Assembly (NCBI GenBank): GCA_016929985.1
Contig: JAFGIH010000326.1
Location: 1 to 5,690 of the forward strand
DNA from: Thermoleophilia bacterium
GTDB lineage: Bacteria > Actinomycetota > Thermoleophilia > RBG-16-64-13
Length of the DNA: 5,690 nt
Direction of reading: 5' to 3'
Shown: in pieces, positions 1 to 5,690 of the stretch
Position numbering within the stretch: position 1 is the stretch's first letter
Layout: each line of letters starts with the position of its first letter
Program-made: the position numbers and the translations under genes
The notes under the pieces: model-generated
The model's input: the letters and a program-made list of their open reading frames with translations, nothing else
Told to the model about the DNA's origin: nothing
The model's database searches: none

Positions 1-2817
1 GCGATAGACCCCGCCTCCCACGACGCTTGGGTCGGCACGCGCCGGCTCAGCCTGACCGGCCGCGAGTTCGAGTTGCTCCATCATCTGGCGGAGCATGCGG
101 GATGGGTGTTCTCCCGAGAGCAACTGATCCAGCAGGTGTGGGGCTACGAGTATGTGGGTGACACACGTCTCGTCTCCGTGCACATGAGCAATATCCGCAA
201 GAAGCTTGGCACGACCCCCACCCAGCCCGAGTTCATCGAGAACGTCCGCGGCGTCGGCTACAGGCTGGTCAAGCCCGGCCGGGCGCCCGGACTCGCTCCT
301 CTCAGTGGAGAGGCGCGGAAGGCCGGTGCCACGTCGCAGGGAGCGGGGCTGATCGGACGGGAGGCCGAACTCCGGAACCTTGTCGAGGCGTTCGAGGCCG
401 CCGCCGACAGTCATGGCTCTTTCGTCCTTCTGACAGGAGACGCTGGAATAGGAAAGACCAGTCTCGCGGGTGCTCTTGCGGATACGGCAGCGGAGCGGGG
501 CGCCCTGGTCTGCTCTGCTCACTGCCATGAGGTGGCCGCATCGACTTCCTACCGGCCCTGGGCTCAGATACTCCGGGGGCTCCTCGGGGCGCTGTCCGCC
601 GACGATCTACGCCGGTTTCTCGGCCCGGGGGCGTCCAGATTGGCGGCGTTGGTCCCCGAGGTGGGAAGGTGCGTCGACGGAGACTCCGGTGACGATGCCG
701 GCCCTCCGCTGTTCGACGCCATCTCCGGTCTGCTGGGGCGGATCGCCGCGGAACGGGTCGTGGTGCTGGTGTTCGAGGATCTCGAGTGGTGCGACCCCGA
801 CAGTCTCCCGGTCTTCCAGATCCTCCTCGATGAGGTGGGCAGACTACGATTGTTCGTCGTGATCACCATGGAGGATACCGAGAAAGTGCGGCATCGGTTG
901 CTCCGTGACACCCTAGCGGTCTTTGCCCAGGGCGGCGCCAGGCGGATGCATCTCCAGGGACTGACGAGCCAGGAGACAGAGGAGCTTGTAGCAAACGTAG
1001 CCGGGGAGAAGCTCCCTCGTTCCGTCAGCGAAGCCATCTACAACCAGTCCGAGGGGAATCCCCTTTTTGCCGGTGAGCTGGCCAGACTCCTTGTGACCGA
1101 CGAGGAACTGGCCCACGGACTACGCACGATCCCTGGGAATCTGCCTCTTTCACCTCAGATCCGGGACATCGTGGAGAGGAGAGTGGCGCGCGTAAGCCCC
1201 GAGTGCAGGACTCTGCTCGAGGCGGCCGCCGTGGCCGGCCGGACCTTCTCCGTGCGTCTGCTGCAGACCGTCACCGGGTCGGACATGGATTCGCTCTTGG
1301 CATCGCTGGACGAAGCCCTGCAAGGCCGGCTCATCGAGGGTGACGGAGATCCGGGTCGCTTCCGCTTCGCTCATCCGCTTATCAGACAGGTGCTTGCGGA
1401 CGACCTCGGAGGGGTCCGCAGACTGGCTCTTCACTCCAAGATGGCCAACGCACTGGAAGACTCCGGCGAATCTGAGGAGCGCATCCCCGAGATCGCCTAT
1501 CACTACGCGCAGTCCGCCGCTCTTGGTGATGCAGCGAAGGCTCTCGACTACGCGCGCAGGGCGGGGGAGTCCGCCATGGCACAATGGGGCTTCGAAGACG
1601 CGGCGGGGCAATTCGGCCGGGCGGTAGACCTCCTGCCGTTGGTCGATCTCGACGGCGAGTCACGGCGGGAGACCGCGATAGGTTTGCGCGAGAGCGCGGG
1701 CGATGCGCTCCTTCTGGGCGCCCATCCGCTCGAGGCCGTCGCCTCCTACCAGCAGGCTCTTCTCCTGCTGCCGGCGGGCTCGGAGCGGGTCAAGGCCCGG
1801 ATGCATCGAAAGACAGGCAATGCCTGGCAGGCCGACCAGCGACCCGACGCGGCGCTGGAGTGTTTCGATGTCGCCGAGCATGCTCTGTCCACTCCACCTG
1901 AGAAGCGAGACTCGGGCACATGGCAGGAGTGGATCGAGATCCAACTGGGTAGGATGGACGCCTTCTACTTCAAGGCCGATCTCCCTCGCCTGGCTGCCGC
2001 CGTCGAAGTCACGGAGGGCGCCGTCTTGCGATCCGGGACCAAGGAGCAACAGACCAGGCTGGCGGCGCTCCGCCTCTCGCTCTCCTTCCGGCTGGAACGG
2101 TATGTGATCTCGCCCGACACGGTTGAGGAGGCCCGCGAGCAGTGGCTGCAGAGCCAGGAGGGCGGGAGTCGGCGTCAGAGGTGCAACGCAGAATTCGTCC
2201 TGGCCTTCGCTCTGCTCTGGAACGGCCGGGTGGCTGAAGCCGGGTCGCACCTCTTGTCGTGCGAGGAGGCGGCGCAGAGCCTGCACGACCGCCGCCTGCA
2301 GGTGCTTGCTTCTACATACCTGGCGGTCGCCGCGCGGGTGAAAGGCGACGTGAAGGAGACCGAGGACTGGGCCTTGATCAGCATCGAACGCGCAGCCGCC
2401 ACTCATCTGCCTGGCTACGTCGCCACGGCCAAAGCCGACCTGGCCTGGGTCGCACTGCGGCGGGGCGATAGCGTGCAGGCGGAGCGCCTCGCACGCGAGG
2501 CGCTCGCCCTTTGGGAAACCCCCTTCGCCTACCCGTTCGAGTGGCTCGCTCGTTGGCCGCTCGTGGCCGTCTTGCTGGAGCGCGACGATCTACCGGCGGC
2601 CATGGAGCAGGCGGAGGCCCTGCTGCTCGATCATCAGCAGCCTCCACCCCCGCCGTTGGCCTCGTCGTTGGCTCTCGCAGCAGAAGCGTGGCAGATAGGC
2701 GATGCGGGAGAGGCGAAGAGCCGGCTGGTCGGCGCGCTCGCCGCAGGCCGAGACGGTTGGGACGTGGCGGGGGCTGCCGCCGCGTCAGATGTTTCGGGAA
2801 TCGTAGGCCCAGTGTAG
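1..2817 (+). CDS. OmpR-type winged-helix / AAA (STAND-like) ATPase / TPR-like transcriptional regulator, 5'-truncated by the window edge
   Basis: Probable cytoplasmic transcriptional regulator. The frame is open from base 1, so the gene starts upstream; 938 residues are visible. Visible residues 1 to about 92 form most of an OmpR/PhoB-type winged helix: LTGREFELLHHLAEHAG, SREQLIQQVWG, the recognition-helix region VSVHMSNIRKKLG, and the wing ending GVGYRLV. A linker leads to a P-loop ATPase with Walker A GDAGIGKT (residues 146-153) and Walker B-like VVVLVFEDLEWCDPD (253-267). A GNPLFAGELARLL motif is typical of MalT/LuxR-like and cyclase-associated STAND ATPases. From about residue 495 to the end the protein is Ala/Leu-rich and helical, resembling degenerate TPRs (AYHYAQSAALGDAAKAL; FEDAAGQFGRAVDLLP), with a five-proline run encoded at 2641-2655. 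By family analogy, the ATPase/TPR part would sense a ligand or partner and control DNA binding. A TTG at 73 lies inside the winged helix and is not the start. A receiver domain further upstream cannot be excluded. No BTAD domain is evident, which distinguishes it from AfsR/SARP proteins. Confidence 0.88.
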   Translation, partial: AIDPASHDAWVGTRRLSLTGREFELLHHLAEHAGWVFSREQLIQQVWGYEYVGDTRLVSVHMSNIRKKLGTTPTQPEFIENVRGVGYRLVKPGRAPGLAPLSGEARKAGATSQGAGLIGREAELRNLVEAFEAAADSHGSFVLLTGDAGIGKTSLAGALADTAAERGALVCSAHCHEVAASTSYRPWAQILRGLLGALSADDLRRFLGPGASRLAALVPEVGRCVDGDSGDDAGPPLFDAISGLLGRIAAERVVVLVFEDLEWCDPDSLPVFQILLDEVGRLRLFVVITMEDTEKVRHRLLRDTLAVFAQGGARRMHLQGLTSQETEELVANVAGEKLPRSVSEAIYNQSEGNPLFAGELARLLVTDEELAHGLRTIPGNLPLSPQIRDIVERRVARVSPECRTLLEAAAVAGRTFSVRLLQTVTGSDMDSLLASLDEALQGRLIEGDGDPGRFRFAHPLIRQVLADDLGGVRRLALHSKMANALEDSGESEERIPEIAYHYAQSAALGDAAKALDYARRAGESAMAQWGFEDAAGQFGRAVDLLPLVDLDGESRRETAIGLRESAGDALLLGAHPLEAVASYQQALLLLPAGSERVKARMHRKTGNAWQADQRPDAALECFDVAEHALSTPPEKRDSGTWQEWIEIQLGRMDAFYFKADLPRLAAAVEVTEGAVLRSGTKEQQTRLAALRLSLSFRLERYVISPDTVEEAREQWLQSQEGGSRRQRCNAEFVLAFALLWNGRVAEAGSHLLSCEEAAQSLHDRRLQVLASTYLAVAARVKGDVKETEDWALISIERAAATHLPGYVATAKADLAWVALRRGDSVQAERLAREALALWETPFAYPFEWLARWPLVAVLLERDDLPAAMEQAEALLLDHQQPPPPPLASSLALAAEAWQIGDAGEAKSRLVGALAAGRDGWDVAGAAAASDVSGIVGPV

Positions 2818-3309
2818 AAGGGCTTGGCGCTGCTTCTGGCGGCAGCTCAGGTCGCTCGGGTGGCAGTTCCTGCGGATCTGGGCTACGTGCCTACGCATGG
2901 CCTTCCACCGGCCTATCTGCCGCGCATCTTCGTCAGGCATCCGTCTACCCAGGTAGTAACGGCAGTACCACTGGAACCAGCCCCGCGGGTCGTCGGGATG
3001 TATCCATCCTCGCTTGACCCACTCAGAGAGGGGCAGGGATGCGTCCACTCCGAAATAGTTGAGGGCCGGGTCCTTCTTCTCCGGCGAGAGCTTCGCCTTC
3101 ACGAACCACTCGGCAGGGAACTCGTCACGGCAATCGGTCATGTACTTGCCGCCGAACACCCCCAGCGCGAGCATCTCTCGCGGTGTCAACTCCGGCGTGA
3201 ACTCCTCGTCGAAGCCGCGGCCCGTGGGAGCCGTCAATACGTAACGGTAGTCCCGCTGCATCTTGTCGTTCACCACGACCTCGCGCATCTCCGTGCCGGT
3301 CACGCTCAT
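2785..3309 (-). CDS. Conserved-looking protein of unknown function, 174 aa
   Basis: I cannot assign a function. The product is soluble, with no signal peptide or membrane segment. It is rich in Trp, Tyr and Arg and has strongly patterned motifs that look conserved: LTPREMLALGVFGGKYMTDC (41-60), EFPAEWF (63-69), GWIHPDDPRGWFQWYCRYYL (101-120), GRRMPDEDARQIGRW (121-135) and LLHWAYDSRNI (164-174). I recall similar uncharacterised proteins in diverse bacteria and some eukaryotes, but cannot confirm this here. Four cysteines are present (C60, C116, C149, C156), and the C149-H150 to C156 spacing in a basic C-terminal segment could be metal-binding or merely structural. The ATG at 3309 follows the DegV stop by 5 nt, and an AGGG about 9 nt upstream could serve as ribosome binding site. 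In-frame ATGs at codons 8 and 17 are alternative starts. It is the last gene of the operon. Its final codons overlap the convergent regulator gene by 33 bp. Confidence 0.85.
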   Translation of the reverse strand: MSVTGTEMREVVVNDKMQRDYRYVLTAPTGRGFDEEFTPELTPREMLALGVFGGKYMTDCRDEFPAEWFVKAKLSPEKKDPALNYFGVDASLPLSEWVKRGWIHPDDPRGWFQWYCRYYLGRRMPDEDARQIGRWKAMRRHVAQIRRNCHPSDLSCRQKQRQALLHWAYDSRNI

Positions 3310-3314
3310 CAGGC

Positions 3315-4196
3315 TCAGCCCTGCCCGTCACCCGGCGTTGTGTCGGGCGCGGTGCGGCGCTGCACGGCCACCGCTATCGTTCCAAGCCCGACGTGCGTGG
3401 TGATGACCGCGCCGGCTTCCAGCACCGGGATATCCAGGTCGCCAAAAGAAGTGCGGAGACGATCGCGGAGGTACAGCGCGTCGTCGTGGCCGTCGGCGTG
3501 GGCGATGGCGATCCGCACGGCGCCGTCAGGCGCGTAGCGCACGACCCGCTCGGCGACGGCACGTATCGCCCTCGCAAAGCCGATGCGCGCGCCATCGGTA
3601 TGGGCGCCCCCCTCGTCGTCGAAGATGATGAGGGGCTTGAGATCGGTCATCTTGGCGAGGCGCGCGGCGTGCGCGCTCACCCGGCCACCCTTGACGGCGA
3701 CCTCCAGAGACTGAAGGGTGCCGTACACGCGGGTGTCACGCGCGACGGCTCTGGCCGCCGCCGCCACTCCTGCCAGGTCCTCGCCGGCCGCGATCGCCTC
3801 TCCCGCGGCCTGCACCACCAAGCCGACGCCCATGGAGACCTTCTGCGAATCGATAACCAGCACCCGAGCGGGATCGACCGTCTCGGCGGCAAGCGTGGCC
3901 GACTGCACCGCGCCGGAGAGGCGCGCCGATATGTGGATGGAGACCACCGCGTCATGGTGCTCCAGCAGGTTCGAATAGACGTTGGCGAACTCACCCACGC
4001 TCGGTTGTGAAGACTGTGCCTCCTGACCGGCCTCCCGGAAGAGCTTGTAGAAGCCTCTGGGGTCCAAGTCCACCCGGTCCAGGTAGCTGACTCCCCCCAC
4101 CTGGACGTGGAGCGGCACCATGGCAGTGACGTATTTCTGCCGGGCATCCTCGGACAGGTCGCACGTCGAATCGATCACGAGGGCGATATCAGGCAT
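3315..4196 (-). CDS. DegV family protein (FakB-like fatty-acid-binding protein)
   Basis: DegV/FakB proteins bind a fatty acid in a cleft between two domains. In firmicutes they present it to the kinase FakA for phosphorylation. The family signatures appear in order (numbered from the GTG at 4205): VIDSTCDL (10-17), SSQPSVGEF (65-73), SIHISARLSGAVQSA (89-103), VIDSQKVSMGVGLVV (117-131), KGGRVS (172-177), LKPLI (189-193), and the C-terminal EAGAVITTHVGLGT (263-276). Length (293-296 residues) is normal for the family. I prefer the ATG at 4196 (MPDIALVIDST) because AGGGAG lies about 10 nt upstream and the N-terminus matches the family. The GTG at 4205 gives a 4-bp GTGA overlap with the redoxin stop, but its Shine-Dalgarno spacing would be only 1 nt. 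No FakA-like kinase is in the window. The tight coupling implies co-translation with the selenoredoxin. The lipid ligand is unknown. Confidence 0.93.
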   Translation of the reverse strand: MPDIALVIDSTCDLSEDARQKYVTAMVPLHVQVGGVSYLDRVDLDPRGFYKLFREAGQEAQSSQPSVGEFANVYSNLLEHHDAVVSIHISARLSGAVQSATLAAETVDPARVLVIDSQKVSMGVGLVVQAAGEAIAAGEDLAGVAAAARAVARDTRVYGTLQSLEVAVKGGRVSAHAARLAKMTDLKPLIIFDDEGGAHTDGARIGFARAIRAVAERVVRYAPDGAVRIAIAHADGHDDALYLRDRLRTSFGDLDIPVLEAGAVITTHVGLGTIAVAVQRRTAPDTTPGDGQG

Positions 4197-4201
4197 GGGC
4201 G

Positions 4202-4675
4202 TCACGCTCCCTGGTCGAGCCCGGCGATGAGGCCGAGTATCTCATCGTTGGGCGGGATGTCTGACATGTCATGGCCGTAGTGGACGAACCGGGCTACGCC
4301 TGACTTGTCCACCAGCACCTGCGCCGGCATGCGTCCCAGCTTGAACAGCTTGATCTCCTGTCCGTAGAGCTTGAGTACACCGTGTTCGGGGTCGGGTAGA
4401 CCGACGAAGGGTAGCTCGTTCTCTTGCCAGTACTTGGTGAACGCCGCGGCGTCTTCCGGACCGACCACCACGACGATCGTCTCTGACTCTTGGAACAGGG
4501 GATAGTCGAGGCGCAACTGCGCCATGTGCGCGCGGCAGAACGGTCACATGAAGCCCCGATTGAATACCAGAAGCACGTTGGCCGAGCCTCTGTGGTCGCT
4601 CAGCCGGAATGTCGCGCCGGTGAAGTCGGCCAGTTCGAATTCGGGAGCCTGTGCCTCGATGTCGACCTTCGGCAC
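4202..4675 (-). CDS. Putative selenocysteine-containing redoxin (AhpC/TSA or peroxiredoxin-like), UPFC active site, UGA read through
   Basis: Predicted cytoplasmic thioredoxin-fold oxidoreductase of 157 residues including Sec. The N-terminal part reads VPKVDIEAQAPEFELADFTG, the usual peroxiredoxin-like opening (APxFxLxD), then FRLSD, then the strand NVLLVFNRGFM leading to in-frame UGA (residue 44) and PFCRAHMAQLRLDY. The UGA replaces the first Cys of a CxxC motif, giving U44-P-F-C47. No other Cys exists in the protein. Downstream, VVVVGPEDAAAFTKYW, LPFVGLPDP, LGRMPAQVLVDKSG (with the cis-Pro-type MPA) and FVHYGHDMSDIPPNDEIL complete the fold without frameshift. The GTG at 4675 has AAGGAGG with 6-nt spacing. 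A SECIS-like hairpin follows the UGA. It is the first gene of the operon with degV. Substrate (peroxide or disulfide) is unknown. Alternatives are a true nonsense mutation or a sequencing error (TGC to TGA). The intact frame, the position at the redox residue and the hairpin favour Sec. The Sec machinery (selA, selB, selC, selD) is not in this window. Confidence 0.82.
4510..4523 (-). promoter_or_regulatory. Candidate bacterial SECIS hairpin inside the redoxin coding sequence
   Basis: The minus-strand RNA GGCGC-AGUU-GCGCC forms a perfect 5-bp GC stem with a four-base apical loop (the sequence is a 14-nt inverted repeat). The loop has G at its second position followed by U. That G lies 26 nt after the UGA. 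This fits what is known of bacterial SECIS elements: a short upper stem, a G among the first two loop bases, and about 16-37 nt from the Sec codon, bound by SelB. The stem does not clearly extend downward. A competing weaker fold (CUGC pairing with GCAG, 4538 to 4517) overlaps it. It also encodes part of MAQLR, so chance in a GC-rich gene is possible. Confidence 0.62.
4544..4546 (-). other. In-frame UGA, predicted selenocysteine codon
   Basis: The minus strand reads TTC ATG TGA CCG TTC TGC CGC. The TGA is codon 44 of the redoxin frame that starts at 4675. It occupies the first position of the CxxC redox motif, the usual place for Sec in thioredoxin-fold selenoproteins. The frame continues from it to the stop at 4202. 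Confidence 0.78.
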
Positions 4676-4680
4676 GTTCG

Positions 4681-4688
4681 CCCTCCTT
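4681..4688 (-). promoter_or_regulatory. Ribosome binding site deciding the selenoredoxin GTG start
   Basis: AAGGAGGG on the minus strand, with GGAGG 6 nt before the GTG at 4675. This near-perfect Shine-Dalgarno fixes translation start well upstream of the UGA and shows that the N-terminal half is a real translated region. An ATG at 4694 lies upstream of this site, is out of frame, and has no comparable site. Confidence 0.8.
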
Positions 4689-4707
4689 GTTCATAAGAGA
4701 CGCCGAA

Positions 4708-4722
4708 ATAGGTATTACCTAT
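4708..4722. promoter_or_regulatory. Perfect 7-1-7 palindrome, probable operator in the divergent intergenic region
   Basis: ATAGGTA-T-TACCTAT is a perfect inverted repeat in an AT-rich patch of otherwise GC-rich DNA. A nested overlapping repeat (GGTAT-TACCT-ATACC) spans 4711-4725. It lies 32 nt upstream of the selenoredoxin GTG, where the minus-strand -10 region would be expected, and about 100 nt upstream of the solute-binding protein start. A dimeric repressor or activator controlling the selenoredoxin operon is the simplest reading. I cannot assign the regulator family, and no dedicated regulator is adjacent. Confidence 0.5.
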
Positions 4723-4748
4723 ACCTGGCTTCCCACAAACCCCAGCGC

Positions 4749-4754
4749 TACACT
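4749..4754 (+). promoter_or_regulatory. Weak candidate -10 element for the solute-binding protein gene
   Basis: TACACT fits the loose TAnnnT pattern of housekeeping -10 boxes in high-GC actinobacteria and would give a leader of roughly 65 nt before the ATG at 4825. No convincing -35 box lies 16-18 nt upstream, so this is tentative. A CTTCATGAAG palindrome (4753-4762) overlaps it. Confidence 0.22.
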
Positions 4755-4810
4755 TCATGAAGGGGGGAACGGGAAGATAGCCCCGTGGACCGATTCCGCG
4801 GAGCATGTCC

Positions 4811-4818
4811 AGAGGAGG
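4811..4818 (+). promoter_or_regulatory. Ribosome binding site of the solute-binding protein
   Basis: AGAGGAGG with GGAGG at 4814-4818, 6 nt before the ATG at 4825. It selects that ATG over the in-frame GTG at 4819, which directly abuts the site, and over the GTG at 4891 next to the Tat motif. Confidence 0.75.
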
Positions 4819-4824
4819 GTGTGG

Positions 4825-5690
4825 ATGCTCGATGTCAGCAGAAACGACCAGACTCAACACGGAGACACGACCTCTCCAGCCAGAAGACCCGTGAGCCGCC
4901 GCGAGTTCCTCAAGCTGGCCGGCCTTCTCGGCGCCTCGGCTGTGGCGGCCGGTGGGTTGGGCGGGTTGCTCGCGGCATGCGGCGATGACGAGGAGGCTAC
5001 CGCGACCACGGCCGCGCCGGTCACCACCGCCGGACCAACGACCACGGCGGGCGCCGATATGGGCCGGGAGGTGAAGATCGGTTTCGTCACCCCTATCACC
5101 GGTGGTATCGCCGCCATGGGTATGGCCGACCAGTTCTGCGTCGACCAGTGGGTGAAGGCGATCGGTGACGGCCTTGTTTGTGGCGACGGCAAGAAGCACC
5201 CTATCAAGTTCGAGGTGCTTGACAGCCAGTCTGACTCCATGCGGGCCTCCCAGGTAGCGGGCGACCTCATCCAGAACGTCAAGGTCGACATCATCATGGC
5301 CGCGGCGACGCCGGACACGGTGAACCCGGTGGCCGACACGGCTGAGTCTATGGGCACTCCGTGCATCACGTGCGACACGCCTACTGAGTCGTACTACTTT
5401 GGGCGTGGCGCTACCCCCGAGAAGCCCTTCAAGTGGACCTACCATGCTTTCTGGGGCATGCAGCAGATCCAGAATGTCAGCCTCAGTCTGTGGGATCAGA
5501 TCGCGACCAACAAGGTCGTCGGCGCGCTGTGGCCGAACAACGTCGACGGCAACGCCTACAGGGATTCCTATCCACCCTTCATGGACAAGAACGGCTACAC
5601 ACTCGTCGATGGAGGCATGTACCAGGAGCCGAACGAAGACTGGACGGCCATGATCAGCGAGTTCAAGAAGGCGGGTGCCGAGATCTTCAC
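4825..5690 (+). CDS. Tat-exported lipoprotein, LivJ-like (Peripla_BP_6 type) ABC-transporter solute-binding protein, 3'-truncated by the window edge
   Basis: Binds a small solute outside the membrane and delivers it to an ABC permease, most likely of the branched-chain amino-acid/amide class, whose genes would lie beyond the right edge. The first 288 codons are visible with no stop. Residues 24-30 are a perfect twin-arginine motif (SRREFLK), followed by a hydrophobic Ala/Gly/Leu segment and lipobox LAAC with Cys52 as the lipidation site. A low-complexity Thr/Ala/Pro linker (about 54-79) tethers the domain. The type I binding-protein fold begins at VKIGFVTPITGGIAAMG (83-99), continues with FEVLDSQSD (129-137), VAGDLIQNVKVDIIMAAATP (144-163) and GTPCIT (177-182), then FKWTYHAFWG (202-211) and VGALWPNN, typical of actinobacterial members. 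The ligand cannot be read from the sequence. Four Cys follow the linker (105, 119, 180, 183), including the CxxC-spaced pair C180-I-T-C183. The ATG at 4825 has a good ribosome binding site. Confidence 0.9.
   Translation, partial: MLDVSRNDQTQHGDTTSPARRPVSRREFLKLAGLLGASAVAAGGLGGLLAACGDDEEATATTAAPVTTAGPTTTAGADMGREVKIGFVTPITGGIAAMGMADQFCVDQWVKAIGDGLVCGDGKKHPIKFEVLDSQSDSMRASQVAGDLIQNVKVDIIMAAATPDTVNPVADTAESMGTPCITCDTPTESYYFGRGATPEKPFKWTYHAFWGMQQIQNVSLSLWDQIATNKVVGALWPNNVDGNAYRDSYPPFMDKNGYTLVDGGMYQEPNEDWTAMISEFKKAGAEIF

Follow-up and report, generated by a model that had tools for sequence, protein, structure and literature searches.

The contig JAFGIH010000326.1 of a Thermoleophilia bacterium (Actinomycetota; assembly GCA_016929985.1), of which positions 1 to 5,690 were analyzed (the whole of this 5,690-nucleotide stretch is hereafter the window), carries on its reverse strand a peroxiredoxin-like gene with a single in-frame UGA codon. 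We propose that this gene encodes a selenoprotein of approximately 157 residues, in which the UGA at codon 44 would be decoded as selenocysteine (Sec) by means of a hairpin of the selenocysteine insertion sequence (SECIS) type lying inside the gene; comparative sequence analysis leads us to put the probability of this reading at about 95%. The features concerned are the following:

4202..4675, reverse strand: gene of the predicted peroxiredoxin-like (AhpC/TSA, PF00578) selenoprotein, 157 codons plus a terminal TGA, with the active site U44-P-F-C47
4681..4688, reverse strand: Shine-Dalgarno sequence AAGGAGGG, read from the sequence, 5 nt ahead of the GTG at 4675
4544..4546, reverse strand: in-frame UGA, the predicted selenocysteine codon (residue 44), assigned from the frame and the codons of relatives
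4535..4537, reverse strand: TGC codon of Cys47, the putative resolving cysteine, invariant in 28 open reading frames (ORFs)
4509..4524, reverse strand: SECIS-type hairpin, consensus extent; in the window its stem is GGCGC/GCGCC and its apical loop AGUU (4518-4515)

With TGA read as Sec (U), the frame is open from the GTG at 4675 to the TGA at 4204-4202 and its sole internal TGA lies at 4546-4544, which confirms a real frame with an in-frame UGA at 4675-4202 of the reverse strand. On re-reading, the frame, the single UGA and the Shine-Dalgarno sequence proved correct in every particular as given in an earlier note made from the sequence alone. That note had also placed the UGA at the first position of a CxxC motif with one cysteine left, and the residues around the codon (FNRGFMUPFCRAHM) indeed contain U44-P-F-C47, C47 (4537-4535) being the only cysteine of the 157-residue product. 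Its assignment of the product to the redoxins holds as well, as the recoded frame, with residue 44 read as Cys, matches PF00578 (AhpC-TSA) with 68.2 bits (gathering cut-off 26); a structure model of the selenoprotein has a predicted local distance difference test score (pLDDT) of 90.8. Without recoding, the remaining ORF is a 107-residue piece (4525-4202) starting from an ATG at residue 51. The enzyme class was already known, and the SECIS element had not been considered in the earlier note.

The protein is predicted to adopt the peroxiredoxin/ResA-type thioredoxin fold and is probably cytosolic. In the proposed mechanism the hairpin, with its AGUU loop 25 nt downstream of the UGA, would recruit SelB together with Sec-tRNA(UCA), and codon 44 would be decoded as Sec. 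Sec44, at the N-terminal end of the first active-site helix, would then provide the attacking selenol, Cys47 would resolve the selenenyl-sulfide, and the enzyme would be re-reduced by a thioredoxin system. The missing peroxiredoxin threonine combined with the thioredoxin-like UxxC suggests a thiol:disulfide oxidoreductase or a reductant-coupled peroxidase. The selenoprotein could instead be a classical peroxiredoxin, i.e. a PrxQ/AhpE-like peroxidase rather than an oxidoreductase, a reading that concerns function alone and is compatible with Sec decoding. It is a doubtful one, if far from negligible: the PxxxTxxU motif is absent (V37 stands at -7 and G41 at -3 relative to U44), and the UxxC spacing and the invariant P117 appear to resemble thioredoxin/ResA proteins. 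Across 53 sequences R115, a candidate for the catalytic Arg of peroxiredoxins, is nearly invariant, and P117, a candidate for the cis-Pro facing the CxxC in thioredoxin/ResA enzymes, is invariant; an alignment to AhpE has a gap at the place of R115.

A scan of genome contigs recovered 30 loci with relatives, 28 of which (56-80% identity) cover residue 44; the remaining two, L029 and L030, fall short of it and were dropped. The match of L030 is limited to query residues 99-149 and its upstream part differs; its genome contains selA, selB, tRNA-Sec and selD. L028 (with a run of N) was excluded from most codon counts, the tree and the shuffles, and L106 (with an extra TAA) from the tree and the shuffles; L076 and L078, which come from the same genomes as L006 and L018, were kept in the tree and the register rows and removed from the shuffle test. 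L106 (genome G687), in which an in-frame TAA accompanies the UGA, is possibly a pseudogene or an assembly error.

In 28/28 covering loci TGA stands at codon 44 and TGC at codon 47, and every one of these loci displays the motif UP[FY]C. The stop codons of the genes (29 loci, window included) are TAA in 12, TAG in 7 and TGA in 10, the window being among the last; because 10 of the 29 genes end in TGA, UGA is an ordinary stop too in these organisms. Pairwise ratios of nonsynonymous to synonymous differences (pN/pS) amount to 0.37-0.43 before the UGA and 0.30 after it, rough values as pS is near saturation, and by this comparison the codons on either side of the UGA are under purifying selection. 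A search of 400 Chloroflexota genomes at E <= 1e-30 gave matches in 44 of them, at 47 places, of which 46 contain a TGA and one does not; position 44 is TGA in 31 of the 32 Chloroflexota loci that were fetched and TGC in one (L105). At E <= 1e-10, matches occur in 66 of 396 Actinomycetota genomes, and only two of these, the genomes of L001 and L003, are close. The earlier note had expected UGA or Cys at position 44 of relatives, and the two do exchange there.

Database records of the family were counted among the best 120 of the 7973 proteins found at E <= 0.001. Of these, 61 have Trp at position 44, 8 have Cys, 2 Arg and 1 Leu; one more (P0078) is misframed, and the part holding this residue is absent from 47, the database pieces being 102-119 residues long. 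Four proteins (P0019, P0037, P0046, P0058) were assigned by eye after the pattern had missed them, and later counts agree. Trp is the product expected of a code-4 gene call on TGA, and the Trp records are presumed to represent Sec. The suggestion that routine annotation would yield a piece of about 107 residues is borne out by P0070, an NCBI 'redoxin domain-containing protein' identical to the post-UGA part of L001. The two Arg records (P0018, P0072) and the Leu record (P0012) otherwise have an intact frame, and could stem from single-base errors in the UGA or from a genuine loss of Sec.

The consensus hairpin of the family is UGGCGC-AGUU-GCGCCA, with 25 nt between the UGA and the loop, which thus begins 28 nt from the U of the UGA; the hairpin of the window lacks the outer U-A pair and has five G-C pairs. 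We examined synonymous variation in codons whose residue is common to at least 24 of 28 ORFs, Met and Trp aside, and it is lacking only in Cys47 (TGC), Ala52 (GCG), Gln53 (CAG) and Leu54 (TTG); where these residues are conserved, GCG is used in 27/27, CAG in 28/28 and TTG in 28/28 cases. TTG encodes Leu54 in 29/29 loci, as against 71/409 other leucines of the same genes. By alifold energy, none of the 130 segments along the ORF does better than those over the hairpin. Compared with synonymous shuffles, the mean folding energy has a z of -7.6 for sequences with the loop at +28 (n=45) and -4.3 for those with a loop at +19 described below (n=11), while among remote relatives it is -3.6 for Sec (n=18) versus -0.08 for Cys forms (n=7). 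L105, the sole Cys member of the family with DNA, has a z of -1.55 that comes from another fold, and one sequence proves little; the remote Cys relatives are the better control. One stem pair has changed on both sides (GC 35, GU 11, AU 1). In L022 and L025 a simple scan for hairpins gave a higher score to a different hairpin; both loci keep the CAGUUG run.

The 22-nt hairpin of the window alone folds with -9.6 kcal/mol (z -2.4). The bacterial SECIS (bSECIS) model, as stated in the legend of Fig 2 of PMC13188914, has a loop of 3-9 nt with G in the first two loop positions, a stem of 4-16 bp, a spacing of 16-37 nt and a minimum free energy of at most -7.5; the window hairpin lies within it, with a loop of 4 nt, a stem of 5 bp, 25 nt of spacing and the above energy of the 22-nt hairpin. 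A search of the window against Rfam gave no match up to E 1, and a tRNA scan of the window found none. The case for a SECIS element is one of alignment and synonymous constraint, not of the single-sequence fold of the window.

The position of the hairpin is not the same throughout the family. In the +28 register the loop is AGUU in 46/47 rows, whereas in one clade of 11 Chloroflexota sequences (L089, L091, L093, L096-L100, L102-L104; support 100/100) the +28 hairpin is gone and the loop is found at +19, in a hairpin of the type GCGCGC-AGUUG-GCGCGC with the loops AGUUG (8), AGUUA (2) and CGUUG (1). The exact run GCG-CAG-UUG occupies U+8 to U+10 in 44/47 rows of the +28 register and U+5 to U+7 in 7/11 rows of the +19 register. 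At the protein level HMAQLR becomes RAQLAR, i.e. Ala-Gln-Leu has moved three codons earlier together with the loop. Furthermore, Gln at U+9 (Gln53) is present in 61/61 Trp-annotated proteins, presumed to contain Sec, versus 4/8 Cys proteins (p 8e-5, the sequences being related). These patterns incline us, with some reserve, to the view that a part of the protein sequence is set by the SECIS element, the otherwise invariant Gln53 being kept for recognition of the RNA and set free once Cys is used. The RNA loop probably dictates at least the glutamine; the reading of RNA-dictated residues is limited to it because only Gln53 supports it, His50 (U+6) and Leu54 (U+10) each being kept in 8/8 Cys proteins and giving no such sign. 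Two SECIS registers in one family represent a natural experiment on the way in which a signal in the RNA of a coding region shapes a protein, and, if this view is true, shifts of this kind could distinguish residues imposed by the RNA from functional ones in selenoproteins.

The genomes hosting the 30 loci, nearly all labeled as metagenome-assembled, were searched for the selenocysteine machinery alongside 14 control genomes. The tRNA-Sec model RF01852 is unspecific at E <= 0.001, matching 14/14 controls (5 over the cut-off), so hits below 61 bits were discarded; the same E value lets selB match 14/14 controls too, and for it only matches over the cut-off were counted. Over curated cut-offs, the relatives' genomes have selA in 27, selB in 25 and selD in 27 of 30, and tRNA-Sec of at least 61 bits occurs in 25/30, with the anticodon TCA in 10/10 of those examined among the 25; none of the 30 lacks all four. 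Of the controls, 1 passes for selA, 2 for selB, 2 for selD and 5 for tRNA-Sec. The check for this machinery that the earlier note had proposed has thus been answered for the genomes of close relatives, in which selA, selB, selD and tRNA-Sec were found. Together with position 44 of the relatives, these findings support its interpretation of the product as a Sec enzyme, as far as sequences go. Within the same genomes (G001-G030), 28 of the 29 selD places over the cut-off have one in-frame TGA, while G016, which has two selD pieces, contributes the exception with one of them; SelD is probably itself a selenoprotein in these hosts.

The gene also co-occurs with selA, with p-values that are indicative only, as the genomes are related. 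In Chloroflexota selA (E <= 1e-60) is present in 44/44 genomes with the gene (one of them with the Cys form) versus 278/356 without it (p 6e-5). In Actinomycetota it is present in 20/20 genomes with a UGA verified at position 44 versus 3/7 with Cys (p 0.002), a comparison in which 18 of the 20 UGA genomes and all 7 Cys genomes belong to remote subfamilies at 27-37% identity. By type of match, selA is found in 33/35 Actinomycetota genomes with any TGA, 17/31 with no TGA and 179/330 with no match.

Certain observations weigh against our proposal. By mean single-sequence energy the +210 segment of the ORF ranks first and the hairpin site second, and the window RNA in a 45-nt context prefers a different fold (z +0.24). 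The evidence for the machinery comes from relatives, and selA is common in Chloroflexota regardless (322/400). In G184 and G309 there is a TGA-containing match with selA undetected; neither TGA is confirmed at position 44, and in G184 the codon aligned to it is ACG. What the enzyme might do beyond redox chemistry can be put forward only tentatively.

Three other explanations of the UGA itself have to be weighed against decoding as Sec. The codon could be read as another residue, through a genome-wide code with UGA=Trp or through unprogrammed read-through, and the predominance of Trp at this position in the database proteins is what a code-4 call would give. However, UGA also terminates some of these very genes, that of the window included, the host genomes of the relatives have selA, selB, selD and tRNA-Sec, and Trp would deprive the [C/U]xxC motif of its nucleophile, at a place where intact relatives have Cys; we regard this reading as very improbable. 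That the UGA is a sequencing error or a decaying nonsense mutation of a former Cys enzyme would look alike in one isolated metagenomic window, and the few relatives with Arg or Leu at the site might be taken in its favor; yet the same TGA recurs in all 28 independent covering loci, both halves are under purifying selection and the codons after the UGA are frozen at the RNA level, which in the main refutes it and leaves it a negligible chance. Scarcely any chance can be given to the 107-residue piece from Met51 annotated in databases as the functional product, for while its ATG is kept in the 28 covering loci, the piece has no active site, the codons upstream are constrained, and residue 51 is Leu in the +19 clade (11/11) and in the +28 members L083, L087, L088 and L094.

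Decoding of UGA as Sec places the protein close to known enzymes. Peroxiredoxin-like (Prx-like) UxxC/UxxU thiol:disulfide oxidoreductase selenoproteins of the PF00578 family are established in the literature (PMC9312934, PMC13188914, PMC2398784), which include 'Prx-like' selenoproteins of the Sargasso Sea (PMC1088965) and a count of 32 Prx-like UxxC proteins in 28 organisms (PMC5029168). The window protein shares with them PF00578, a thioredoxin-like UxxC replacing TxxU, a bacterial SECIS after the UGA and Cys homologues. Its subfamily is set apart by the signature FNRGFxUP[FY]CRxHMAQLR, and it may or may not have members in the published data sets of the Prx-like family, whose reference protein is WP_010940744.1. 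Judged by sequence, it is a new subfamily of the known Prx-like UxxC selenoproteins with an unusual two-register SECIS; in the open-licence literature as consulted, supplements aside, we found neither the subfamily in Chloroflexota or Actinomycetota nor the SECIS shift described.

A Sec-containing peroxiredoxin with TxxU from Eubacterium acidaminophilum, as cited in PMC13188914, resembles the window protein in its AhpC/TSA fold and active-site Sec, but the latter has UxxC and no PxxxTxxU. Compared to ResA (4nmu), it has Sec for Cys and is without an N-terminal extension for an anchor; the NCBIfam ResA model gives 38.4 bits, far under its cut-off of 170. The best NCBIfam match is NF040769 (SelL-related redox protein), with 70.9 bits against a cut-off of 120. 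This model is matched at E <= 1e-5 by 53/53 aligned family members; in the host genomes the matches of the family score 54-66 bits, and 5/30 hosts have a separate gene over the cut-off.

The subfamily occurs in uncultured Chloroflexota (44 of the 400 sampled, one with Cys) and in some Actinomycetota (2/396 at close identity). Most database records of it are either truncated at the head or show Trp in the active site, because of which its redox chemistry is invisible to annotation, and the nearest NCBI model misses the window protein by about 50 bits. Selenium use in these lineages of Chloroflexota and Actinomycetota is likely undercounted. Remote Actinomycetota subfamilies of AhpC/TSA proteins also have UGA at the same position (L048, L050, L052, L054, L057-L064, L066-L070, L074), with motifs such as FYRGDWUPYCNGQL and FGRGTWUPHCRQYM, and look like a large set of unannotated selenoproteins. 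Cys versions stand beside the UGA versions in these subfamilies (L051, L053, L056), and L066 has Ala at the place of Cys47.

The other genes of the window are as follows:

3315..4205, reverse strand: DegV-family gene, downstream of the selenoprotein gene, whose start overlaps the stop of the latter (GTGA, 4205-4202) or is the ATG at 4196
2785-3309, reverse strand: ORF of 174 residues (MSVTGTEMREVVVNDKMQRDYRYV...), with no Pfam match at E <= 0.001
1-2817, forward strand: large regulator, 5' end cut, with a Trans_reg_C DNA-binding domain, an AAA_16 ATPase and weak TPR
4825-5690, forward strand: divergent gene of a substrate-binding protein (Peripla_BP_6 by Pfam), with an N-terminus that looks by eye like a twin-arginine/lipoprotein one

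The selenoprotein and DegV-family genes are probably co-transcribed, which does not imply a functional link. When 268 neighboring ORFs from 29 loci were clustered, none of the clusters was shared by more than 4 loci; hence the adjacency to DegV is not a conserved one, nor did a redox partner emerge. The 174-residue ORF and the convergent regulator gene overlap by 33 bases, at the 3' end of the latter.
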